DNA from: an uncultured Actinomycetes bacterium
GTDB taxonomy: Bacteria > Actinomycetota > Geothermincolia > Geothermincolales > RBG-13-55-18
Direction of reading: 5' to 3'
Assembly: GCA_937128055.1 (NCBI GenBank)
Contig: CAKZMC010000177.1
Location: forward strand, 1 to 35,399
DNA length: 35,399 nucleotides
Below, one piece after another: positions 16,720 through 20,204 of this stretch (positions within the stretch are counted from its first letter, which is position 1; each line of letters starts with the position of its first letter). A program made the translations under genes and the position numbers. The notes under the pieces are model-generated. The model was not told where the DNA came from and searched no databases. It worked only from the letters and a program-made list of their open reading frames with translations.

Positions 16720-17550
16720 ATGGGGAGAATGTTGAATACGGCAGACTTTTACAGAAGAGGGGCGAGGTTGGAAGACATAGCGGATGTAAGCGGACTCTGG
16801 AAGCAGTTCAAGGAAGAGGGTTCGCAGGAGGCCAGGGAAAAGCTCATCCTCAACTACGCGCCCTTGGTGAAGTACGTGGCCGGCAGGGTTTCCTCGAGCC
16901 TGCCACCCAACATCGAATACGCCGACCTGGTGAGCTACGGCATCTTCGGCCTCATCGACGCCATAGAGAAGTACGAACCCGAGAGGGGCATCAAGTTCGA
17001 AACCTATGCCCTGGCGAGGATCAAGGGGGCCATCATCGACGAGCTCCGCTCCATCGACTGGGTCCCCCGCTCCATCCGCTTCAAGGCCAGGGAGATGGAA
17101 AAGGCCTACGTGGTGCTGGAGAACGAGCTCAAGAGGTTGCCGGCGGACGAGGAAGTGGCCCGGCACATGAACATCACCCTGGACGAATACCATCAGCTGC
17201 TCCAGCAGATGAGCTTCATCTCCCTGGTGGCGCTGGACGAATTGTGGAACGTGGGCGGCGACAAGGGGGACAAGGTAAGCCTGGTGGACACCCTGGAGGA
17301 CTCCCGGGTCAAGGATCCCTCCAAGACCTACGAGGTGGAGGAGATGAAGCAGATCCTTGCCGGCGCCATCAACCGGCTTCCCGAGAGGGAGAAGATCGTC
17401 ATCAGCCTCTACTACTACGAGGGTTTGACCCTGCGGGAGATAGGGGAGGTCCTGGGGGTCACCGAATCCAGGGTCTGCCAGATGCACACCAAGGCCATCC
17501 TCCGCCTGCGGGGAAGGCTGGCCAGCGCCAAGGGGTCCCTGGAAACCTGA
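16720..17550 (+). CDS. whiG: RNA polymerase sigma factor, WhiG/FliA family
   Basis: A 276-residue group 3 sigma factor. Region 1.2/2 runs from LWKQFKEEG through LVSYGIFGLIDAIEKYEPERGIKFETYALARIKGAI... (about 35-110), region 3 is around LPADEEVARHMNI, and region 4 is a helix-turn-helix LTLREIGEVLGVTESRVCQ near 235-253. The RSIDWVPRSIR box at the end of region 2/3 is characteristic of FliA/WhiG/SigD. FliA directs flagellar genes; WhiG starts sporulation in Streptomyces. whiG lies near rpsB-tsf in Streptomyces too, which argues for orthology by position. No flagellar or anti-sigma gene is in this window. ATG 16720 and ATG 16729 are both possible starts; neither has a well-spaced ribosome binding site. 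Confidence 0.92.
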   Translation: MGRMLNTADFYRRGARLEDIADVSGLWKQFKEEGSQEAREKLILNYAPLVKYVAGRVSSSLPPNIEYADLVSYGIFGLIDAIEKYEPERGIKFETYALARIKGAIIDELRSIDWVPRSIRFKAREMEKAYVVLENELKRLPADEEVARHMNITLDEYHQLLQQMSFISLVALDELWNVGGDKGDKVSLVDTLEDSRVKDPSKTYEVEEMKQILAGAINRLPEREKIVISLYYYEGLTLREIGEVLGVTESRVCQMHTKAILRLRGRLASAKGSLET

Positions 17551-17616
17551 GGCCCCGTCACCGGACCCGGCCAGGTAAGGCAGCGGCGATATCAGGATAC
17601 GTGGAAAGGCCGCACG

Positions 17617-17645
17617 TTGCCTGCGAAATTGCCCTGTGCTATATT
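17617..17645 (+). promoter_or_regulatory. Promoter of the rpsB leader
   Basis: TTGCCT (17617-17622), exactly 17 nt, then TATATT (17640-17645), with an upstream TG (17637-17638) forming an extended -10. The predicted start is about 17651-17652, at the first base of the leader stem. It lies 67 nt after the sigma gene stop. Confidence 0.65.
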
Positions 17646-17650
17646 TTACT

Positions 17651-17739
17651 GGCGCCATCACGCGCTGAAAGGAGGTGGGCCGAGGAGACAGGGACGGAGG
17701 GATGGCGCCGCAAGGCCCGCCGCGGGCGGGATTTTTTTT
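17651..17739 (+). ncRNA. Putative rpsB attenuator leader RNA
   Basis: The ~89-nt leader can form three competing pairings. P1 joins GGCGCCATC (17651-17659) to GATGGCGCC (17701-17709). An antiterminator joins GGTGGGCC (17674-17681) to GGCCCGCC (17714-17721), eight pairs with one G-U. The terminator uses 17716-17721 with 17725-17730. The antiterminator crosses P1 and takes the left arm of the terminator, so P1 would favour termination. A perfect AAAGGAGGTG (17668-17677) with no start codon behind it overlaps the antiterminator. I do not recognise a known leader family. Regulation by S2 or by 30S subunits is inference. Confidence 0.55.
17716..17739 (+). terminator. Intrinsic terminator upstream of rpsB
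   Basis: CCCGCC (17716-17721), loop GCG, GGCGGG (17725-17730), then A and eight T (17732-17739). It is the clearest intrinsic terminator in the window. It sits between a good promoter and rpsB on the same strand, about 100 nt before the rpsB ATG. It therefore either ends the sigma gene transcript and a small RNA, or attenuates rpsB. Confidence 0.85.
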
Positions 17740-17838
17740 GGCCGATAAATTCACACGCTCGCTGACCCTGCGCCCGGGTGCCCGGCTGGGTGGGGGCAGG
17801 GGTGGAGGCGGGCGGAGGAGAGAACCAAGGGAGGAACC

Positions 17839-18651
17839 ATGACCGTCGTTTCCATGAAACACCTGCTGGAAGCGGGATTCCATTTCGGGCACCAGACTCG
17901 CAGGTGGAATCCCAAGATGTCCAAGTACATCTTCACCGAGCGCAACGGGATTTACATCATCGACCTGCAGCAGACCCTATCCCTCATCGAAATCGCCTAC
18001 AACTTCATCCGTGACACGGTCGCCCAGGGCGGGACGCTTCTCTTCGTGGGGACCAAGAAACAGGCACAGGAGGCCATAAGGGAGAACGCTCTCCGCTGCG
18101 ACATGCCCTACGTGACCACCCGCTGGTTGGGCGGCACGCTCACCAACTGGATCACCATCAGGAAGCGCATAGAGAAACTGAAGCAGCTCGAGGAGATGGA
18201 GGTCTCGGGAGAGATAGGCGAGATGCCCAAGAAGGAGGCCACCAGGGTCCGCCACCAGTTGGCCAAGCTGCGCCGCAACCTCGAGGGGCTTAAGAGCATG
18301 GAGCGCCTGCCCGACGCCCTCTTCATCATCGATCCCCGCAAGGAGAACATCGCCCTCATAGAAGCCCGCAGGCTGGAGATACCGGTGGTGGCGGTGGTGG
18401 ACACCAACTGCGACCCCGACCTCGTGGATTACGTGATCCCGGGGAACGACGATGCCATCAGGGCAGCCAACCTCATCTGCAAGATAATCTCCAACGCGGT
18501 GCTGGAAGGGATGCAGCTGGGAGAGGTCATGCGCTCCATGGAGCGCAGGGAGGAGGGCGCAGAGGAAGGAGAGGAGGAGAGCGCGGAGGGGGCAGAGGCA
18601 GCGGTCGCGGCGGACGGGGAGGAGCCGTTGGGGGAAAAGGTGGGGGACTGA
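17839..18651 (+). CDS. rpsB: 30S ribosomal protein S2
   Basis: A 270-residue S2, a late-assembling protein of the 30S subunit needed for S1 binding and initiation. Signature sequences include [19 protein letters not shown] near the start, [11 protein letters not shown], and [12 protein letters not shown]. The last ~35 residues are an acidic Glu/Ala tail, a common variable extension. GGGAGG precedes ATG 17839. It heads the rpsB-tsf-pyrH-frr-cdsA cluster and is preceded by the attenuator-like leader; S2 is known to autoregulate rpsB-tsf in E. coli, though by a different element. Confidence 0.98.
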
Positions 18652-18687
18652 ACGTGACCACGGGGCAACAGGATATAAGGAGGAGAT

Positions 18688-19293
18688 ATGGAGATCAATG
18701 CCGCGCAGGTCAAGGAGCTGAGGGAATCTACCGGGGCCGGCATCATGGACTGCAAGAAGGCGCTGCAGGAGGCGCAGGGGGACATGGGCAAGGCCCTTCG
18801 CATATTGAGGGAAAAGGGTTTGGCCGGCGCGAAGAAGAAGGCGGGGCGCGCCGTGGCGGACGGCGTCGTCGACGCTTACATACATCTCAACAACCGCATA
18901 GGCGTGTTGCTCGAGGTCAACTGCGAGACCGATTTCGTGGCCCGCAACGAGACCTTCCGCGCCCTGGCCCACGATATCGCCATGCACATCGCCGCCGCCA
19001 GCCCGCTCTTCGTTTCCGCCGAGGATATACCCCCGGAGGTATTGGAGCAGGAGCGCGAGATCTACCGCGCACGGGCCTTGCAGGAGGGCAAGCCGGAGAA
19101 GGTGCTGGACAAGATCGTCGAGGGGAGGCTGCAGAAGTATTACGAGGAGGTCTGCCTCCTGGACCAGCCCTTCGTGAAGGATCCCGAGATCACGGTGGGG
19201 GAGCTGGTGCAGCGGGCCATCGCCTCGCTGGGCGAGAACATCGTGGTGCGGCGCTTCGTGCGCTACCGGCTGGGCGAGGAAGCCGGGGGCTGA
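18688..19293 (+). CDS. tsf: Elongation factor Ts
   Basis: A 201-residue EF-Ts, the guanine nucleotide exchange factor for EF-Tu. The N-terminal UBA-like domain has [19 protein letters not shown] and the core begins [12 protein letters not shown], which contacts EF-Tu. At about 200 residues it is the short form (single core subdomain, as in Thermus) rather than the ~280-residue form of E. coli or Streptomyces. AAGGAGGAG lies just before ATG 18688. It follows rpsB by 36 bp. Confidence 0.97.
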
Positions 19294-19412
19294 GGCGCGG
19301 GGCGCGCGGGGCCGGCGGGCGAGGGAGAACATCCGGGATAGCCGCCCGGAAGGGCGCCGGGGAAGTGGCGCGGGCCGCCGGGGAAGGTCTGCAGGCGTGA
19401 GAAATAGAATAA

Positions 19413-20204
<792 letters not shown>

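Follow-up and report, generated by a model that had tools for sequence, protein, structure and literature searches.

Which signal decides whether transcription reaches rpsB when the RNA in front of this gene carries a terminator of its own? The question is raised by contig CAKZMC010000177.1 of an uncultured bacterium (positions 1 to 35,399, referred to as the window). Here, an attenuator-like leader precedes an open reading frame (ORF) which we take to be rpsB, coding for ribosomal protein S2 (270 aa; 17839..18651, forward strand as for all window features given below). We interpret this leader as a transcription attenuator placed in tandem before an S2 autoregulatory leader, with a switch strand that would be read by 30S ribosomal subunits, and assign to this reading as a whole a probability of about 0.4. 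That the leader is regulated by transcription attenuation had been proposed in a preliminary description of the locus and is well supported by conservation, as the element occurs in 13 family members at a fixed place, with a covarying first helix (P1) and a near-invariant antiterminator (AT) and terminator; we are highly confident that the attenuator is real. Two features had been overlooked: an invariant complement of the 16S rRNA tail within the AT strand, and a t44-like relative of the S2 leader directly 3' of the terminator.

Layout of the attenuator

P1 is formed by 17651..17659 and 17701..17709 (9 Watson-Crick pairs). Its loop contains the 5' strand of the AT (GGTGGGCC, 17674..17681), which forms 8 pairs, one of them U-G, with the 3' strand GGCCCGCC (17714..17721). 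The final six bases of the latter double as the 5' arm of an intrinsic terminator (17716..17739), which consists of a hairpin (17716-17730) with 6 G-C pairs and a 3-nt loop, followed by an A and eight T (17732-17739). Upstream of P1, a pattern scan revealed a sigma-70-type promoter with an extended -10 element (TTGCCT-17-TATATT with TG upstream; 17617..17645). This promoter-like arrangement occurs once within 17000-20000, compared to 0.4 ± 0.6 times in shuffled sequences. TATATT is found at a comparable place in 8 of the 12 members with upstream DNA displayed (not in L009, L010, L012, and L014); L013 was left out of this count because its sequence ends too early. Judging from the promoter position, transcription probably starts a few bases before P1.

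A direct sequence check and an energy evaluation bore out the coordinates of all four elements as given in the preliminary description, and also that the AT crosses P1 and has six bases in common with the terminator (17716-17721). The claim that the three pairings are mutually exclusive holds in part. The AT and the terminator are the only two helices that exclude each other through common bases. P1 and the terminator have no base in common and coexist, and P1 and the AT merely cross, again without common bases, since the AT links the P1 loop to the stretch just 3' of P1. In calculations for 37 °C that leave proteins and pseudoknots aside, the energies of the helices alone are -16.3 (P1), -16.4 (AT), and -11.6 kcal/mol (terminator), with -27.9 kcal/mol for P1 plus terminator; the joint fold of these two is the predicted minimum (-35.6 kcal/mol including minor extra pairs). 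P1 and the AT could together make an H-type pseudoknot, a reading based on the pairing pattern and the loop lengths: across the 13 genomes, loops L1 (17-18 nt) and L3 (4-5 nt) are near-constant in length and L2 (21-32 nt) is variable.

The folding path was followed by adding bases singly and computing nested minimum-energy folds, with pseudoknots and kinetics ignored. P1 forms first in all 13 members, the AT is predicted at some intermediate length in 11/13, and the terminator is present in the full RNA in 10/13. For several members, early pairing between GGUGGGCC and the P1 5' strand is predicted, but in differing registers; we make no claim for it.

Selection for RNA structure

The helices were compared in alignment A4, which has 13 rows and contains a full copy from genome G008 (L137) in place of the incomplete L013. 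Two further alignments are A1 (12 rows, devoid of L013 and of the element-less L008 and L011) and A2 (6 rows). In A4, 96.9% of the cells in P1 and the AT pair, compared to at most 49.7% after shifting the partners by 1-3 columns. Double-sided changes occur at four of the seven core pairs of P1, and the covariation score of this helix was reached by none of 500 shuffles; these controls do not remove relatedness, and the fitting of A4 to P1 leans the counts towards P1. The rpsB tree shows separate events in P1, with G-C replaced by A-U in the g5 clade, C-G replaced by U-A in L012, and several changes at the top pair. The preliminary description had suggested searching relatives for compensatory changes in all three helices, and the outcome does not refute its claim: P1 shows such changes, and the other two helices are too invariant for a covariation test (7/8 AT pairs and 5/6 terminator pairs are unchanged). 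All eight AT pairs are intact in 12/13 members. This near-invariance is consistent with a double duty of the AT and terminator strands. Averaged over columns, identity amounts to 0.98 for AAGGA and 1.00 for GGTGGGCC, compared to 0.45 for L1 and 0.55 for L2.

The covariation of P1 also speaks for a protein-controlled attenuator of the Bacillus subtilis rplJL kind. A ribosomal protein (r-protein; S2, S1-S2, or another one) would then bind P1 and stabilize it, block the AT, and cause termination, and the complementarity to 16S rRNA described below would be incidental to what the protein or the RNA fold requires. The layout of P1, AT, and terminator resembles that of the anti-antiterminator, antiterminator, and terminator of rplJL (PMC4538822), and r-protein leaders are usually autogenous (PMC2704228; here and below, statements on published work refer to the parts of the papers considered). 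However, P1 and the AT lack common bases here, a leader of the kind usual for S2 is already present downstream, and a protein acting on P1 alone leaves the invariant unpaired AGGA and the U-G wobble of the AT unexplained. We regard such protein control as conceivable but doubtful.

A complement of the 16S rRNA tail in the switch strand

The AT 5' strand lies in the invariant AGGAGGUGGGCC, which is complementary to the 16S rRNA tail. In the window, the complement of the 16S rRNA 3' tail extends over 17668..17681 (AAAGGAGGTGGGCC), and AGGAGGTGGGCC is invariant in all 13 rows of A4. The invariant motif includes AGGAGGUG (AAGGAGGUG in 12/13), the complement of CACCUCCU(U), and the 16S rRNA of this very genome ends with GGATCACCTCCTTT. 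The predicted duplex with 16S rRNA has -18.6 to -20.7 kcal/mol in 13/13 members, whereas seven ORF starts of the window reach -7.2 to -15.8 kcal/mol. Ahead of the AT strand, the AGGA is invariant although it is unpaired in all three helices, and the U-G wobble of the AT is never C-G in the 13 genomes. Both would follow if this strand also had to match CACCUCCUU, which the 16S rRNA of this genome contains.

A complement of this strength amounts to a very strong Shine-Dalgarno (SD) sequence, which might be thought to serve a leader peptide, with a ribosome that translates a short ORF picking the structure; an ORF can indeed be read by eye in the window from the ATG at 17702 across the terminator. 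However, ATG, GTG, or TTG occurs 2-16 nt after GGAGG in only 1/13 members, and 5/13 lack even CTG, ATT, ATC, or ATA at this spacing. The peptide that would start at the GTG inside the motif is not conserved and is interrupted by stops in 4/13, and the ATG at 17702 is ACG in L002. With neither start codon nor peptide conserved across the 13 members, we rejected leader-peptide attenuation, which we consider highly improbable.

An SD sequence without a start codon might alternatively act as a 5' stabilizer similar to the STAB-SD, a decoy that binds 30S subunits and shields the mRNA 5' end from exonuclease, the attenuator then serving another purpose or being constitutive. This would fit the relatives which lack this attenuator, namely two genomes of genus g3 from the same family and one f2 genome, all of which keep GGGAGGTGAG near the 5' end (-16.2 to -19.2 kcal/mol). 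It gives no reason, however, for the exact complementarity between this strand and the terminator arm, which extends over all 8 pairs in 12/13 members, and we consider this reading quite unlikely.

The leaders of these relatives have features of their own. In the two g3 genomes (L008 and L011), a 5' hairpin has the GGTGAGA of the SD-like GGGAGGTGAGA in its 3' arm. In the f2 genome (L018, reverse strand), GGGAGGTGAG can pair with CUUCCC beside a terminator-like hairpin, which has -19.2 kcal/mol, is followed by AUUUUUA, and is missing from the full-length minimum fold (one genome). The pairing of GGGAGG with CUUCCC in this relative may represent the same logic written in other letters.

The downstream S2 leader

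Directly behind the attenuator, 17749..17838 resembles the t44/rpsB-motif S2 leaders; this region abuts rpsB at 17839 and ends with the rpsB ribosome-binding site. In a search of 351 bases, the Rfam family t44 scored 37.2 bits at 17734-17825 (E 1.3e-6). Because this is below the Rfam gathering score of 44 bits, the curator's cut-off for automatic assignment, we classify the region as a divergent relative of t44 and not as a member of the Rfam family. No match at the gathering score was obtained in the window and 18 related loci, and t44 is seen only in E-value searches. Such a search of 17 loci with E up to 1 detected t44 in seven and the Rfam rpsB family in one, all below gathering; the other 9/17 show neither (among them L024, with a chance match to MIR161).

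The leader has two stems (17756-17762/17808-17814 and 17766-17773/17794-17801) and a possible GGT/ACC pseudoknot (17777-17779/17824-17826). For a covariance model (R2), we took 25 leaders, none of them from Escherichia coli; 24 belong to this class, and the remaining one comes from another class of the phylum. Alignment A5 comprises 25 of the 30 loci L001-L030, leaving out L019 and L020 (shorter), L021 (insert), and L023 and L026 (shorter distant forms). Double-sided changes are found in at least one of the 25 sequences for 14/15 predicted pairs; in the upper stem, up to 9/25 sequences have broken inner pairs. The GGU loop and the ACC/ACU tail match in 24/25 by pattern and are near-invariant, which places them outside the covariation test. 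R2 matches E. coli K-12 (L202) at 577-660 (E 3.1e-6), overlapping the annotated T44 (513-648); E. coli rpsB is preceded by the same kind of leader as rpsB here. The lower stem does not pair properly in the alignment with E. coli, with non-standard pairs, so the match leans on sequence. When 25 of 80 named loci were searched, R2 matched 15 at E up to 0.1, and most of the 10 misses bear actinobacterial names. In the phylum, 70/198 genomes are matched (adjacency to rpsB was not checked one by one).

The E. coli leader mediates translational repression by S2 with S1 (PMC10931766, PMC2704228), and the lineages given for the rpsB leader in the part of PMC2704228 considered do not include Actinobacteria. 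As the usual site of S2 is transcribed only after the decision on termination has been made, S2 bound to this site cannot set attenuation.

Several side observations concern this leader in related loci. In L021 (reverse strand), an insert of ~190 nt with inverted-repeat-like ends is seen by eye in the loop of the t44-like leader between GGTGCC and GGTGG, and a similar stretch is located upstream of the leader in L029. This stretch looks like a small mobile element, which in L021 is inside the leader RNA. A recurring TATATTAAACTTGTGAAGATTT-like stretch, also recognized by eye, precedes the t44-like element in L019-L022, L024, L025, L027, and L028 and is perhaps a conserved promoter of another type.

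As to the neighboring genes, a sigma-factor-like ORF (16720..17550), presumably whiG, is located upstream of the leader. The next ORF in the operon after rpsB (18688..19293) is similar to elongation factor Ts, and we assume from its sequence and the gene order that it is tsf.

Distribution

An S2 gene was detected in 58 of 59 related genomes, and the attenuator precedes rpsB in 13 of the 15 genomes examined from the family of the window, which probably belongs to the phylum Actinobacteria. The covariance model used for the attenuator (R1) finds one copy in each of these 13 genomes. Among 396 genomes sampled from the phylum, it gave one further match, in G206; this is an unrelated terminator hairpin on a contig that differs from the one with the t44-like leader of G206, and we judged it false. 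Stricter filters were applied in this search and in the phylum-wide R2 search, and weak copies can be missed in such a sample. Pattern and R1 searches did not find the attenuator in the other 16 genomes examined from the class. The single pattern match there (G017) is on a contig other than that of rpsB, and pattern matches away from rpsB (G000 C50, G005 C3, two in G007, and the one in G017) were not recovered by R1. Within the 15 family genomes, the pattern AGGAGGTG...TTTTTT recovers the rpsB copy in 12; the exceptions are G008, which fails the six-T rule, and the two g3 genomes, which are devoid of the element. Elsewhere, the pattern has scattered matches, several of which resemble, by eye, gene ends before terminators. 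In an rpsB nucleotide tree, for which no support values were taken, the g3 genomes branch from within the family, suggesting that they have lost the attenuator.

In G008, two contigs (C71 and C81) carry the same rpsB leader. The second copy (C71) is cut off at the contig end, and one of the two contigs has just the first 27 codons of rpsB; the double copy is probably an assembly split or a duplicate.

Terminator-like hairpins upstream of rpsB were surveyed in 108 of 110 loci, two with less than 150 nt upstream having been left out. Such a hairpin was detected in 22/108 regions. In 12 of these 22 it is preceded by a strong 16S complement, and all 12 are the attenuator described here; the other 10 reach -11.7 kcal/mol at best. 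The rule applied missed the G008 copy (L013) and the five-T hairpin of L018.

The position of the element bears on a further explanation, according to which P1 and the AT form a small-molecule riboswitch or a self-contained pseudoknot that is stabilized or broken by a ligand. Crossing helices without common bases fit such a device, as do the near-constant lengths of L1 and L3 beside a variable L2, and a ligand pocket typically contains unpaired bases that do not vary. However, metabolite riboswitches usually recur in front of several genes, whereas R1 finds the element only before rpsB. Furthermore, the Rfam matches within 17641-17740 have E values of at least 1.3, besides a 21-base CRISPR-repeat-like match at 5.4. 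A riboswitch thus seems unlikely to us.

Proposed mechanism

We propose that transcription starts shortly before P1 and that P1 closes first, displaying AAGGAGGUGGGCC in its loop. If this strand is free, GGUGGGCC would pair with GGCCCGCC, either as a pseudoknot with P1 or replacing it. The AT would thereby capture the 5' arm of the terminator, permitting read-through into the S2 leader and rpsB-tsf. If AAGGAGGUGGGCC is occupied, the arm would stay free, the terminator would form, and an RNA of ~90 nt would be released. The invariant letters are best matched by the 16S rRNA 3' tail of the 30S subunit, which is why we favor as occupant the tail on free, mRNA-competent 30S subunits. Surplus 30S subunits would then lower the transcription of rpsB-tsf, and the downstream S2 leader would trim translation when S2 itself is in excess.

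Our confidence in 16S rRNA or the 30S subunit as the attenuator signal ranges from slight to tentative. It is at the lower end, and hence rather doubtful, for the full version, in which the small subunit is the ligand, its 16S tail pairs with the start-less SD in the P1 loop and denies the AT, and a surplus of initiation-competent 30S subunits shuts off rpsB-tsf. S2 is a late-binding protein that has been suggested to help hold the SD helix (PMC10931766); subunits poor in S2 might therefore not bind, which would signal a need for more S2.

Several results weigh against a switch strand read by 30S subunits. Strong 16S complements are not rare: -18 kcal/mol or lower is reached by at least 14 sites, this one included, in a pre-filtered scan of both strands of the G+C-rich window, and the genome shows no enrichment of AAGGAGGTG (141 occurrences compared to 172 for the reversed control). 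The case for 16S pairing thus rests on conservation, and a protein or small molecule could require the same invariant bases. In progressive folding, the AT never appears in L006 and L015; the full-length fold has neither AT nor terminator in L004 and L006, and the AT stays in L009. Two family genomes (g3; L008 and L011) lack the attenuator. Two measures for P1 that are cruder than the covariation score were reached by shuffles, the number of double-changed pairs by 35 of 500 and that of further pair types by 340/500. The AT and the terminator vary too little for covariation to be informative.

In the literature considered, the S2 leader acts as a translational autoregulator, and here one lineage adds a transcription attenuator in front of it. 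Expression of rpsB-tsf may thus be under a double control that responds to two signals. If one of these is indeed the 16S tail, a terminator would be the place where cells directly measure free 30S subunits, and the link between r-protein supply and subunit assembly would become testable in vitro with few purified components.

Comparison with known systems

In the part of the literature covered (titles and openings of abstracts, and part of PMC7247131), no description was found that combines attenuation of an r-protein operon with an SD responding to 30S composition and a start-less SD that binds 30S subunits. The closest counterpart of the downstream region is the t44/rpsB motif (RF00127, RF01815; PMC2704228), with which 17749-17838 shares its place, the stems, the GGUGCC loop, the AACC tail, and a match in both directions. 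It differs in the upstream module of P1, AT, and terminator, which has no counterpart in the part of PMC2704228 considered.

The L10(L12)4 attenuator of B. subtilis rplJL (PMC4538822) is also the leader of an r-protein operon with three successive structures, the last of them an intrinsic terminator, and here, too, the AT has bases in common with the terminator (17716-17721). However, the anti-antiterminator and antiterminator of rplJL overlap in bases, whereas P1 and the AT cross and have none in common. The effector of rplJL is the encoded protein complex, whereas here a 16S complement lies in the switch strand.

Flavobacterium johnsoniae rpsU (bS21; PMC9976891) likewise encodes a small-subunit protein and has a 16S complement of exceptional strength (below -13 kcal/mol); its extended SD was shown to respond to 30S composition. 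In that case, the SD serves the translation of rpsU, and activation comes from subunits devoid of bS21. The strand described here, in contrast, belongs to a terminator switch and has no conserved start codon behind it, and the regulation we propose is negative in sign.

The STAB-SD of cry3A mRNA (PMC4113751) is a 5'-proximal SD without translation start that interacts with the 16S tail. Judged by sequence criteria and a start site predicted from the promoter, the strand described here may be similar, as it is a 16S complement with neither a conserved start codon nor a conserved peptide. STAB-SD differs in being an mRNA stabilizer, and the considered part of PMC4113751 mentions no terminator. 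There are thus precedents for the parts of the proposed switch: attenuation of an r-protein operon (PMC4538822), an SD that responds to 30S composition (PMC9976891), and a start-less SD that binds 30S subunits (PMC4113751).
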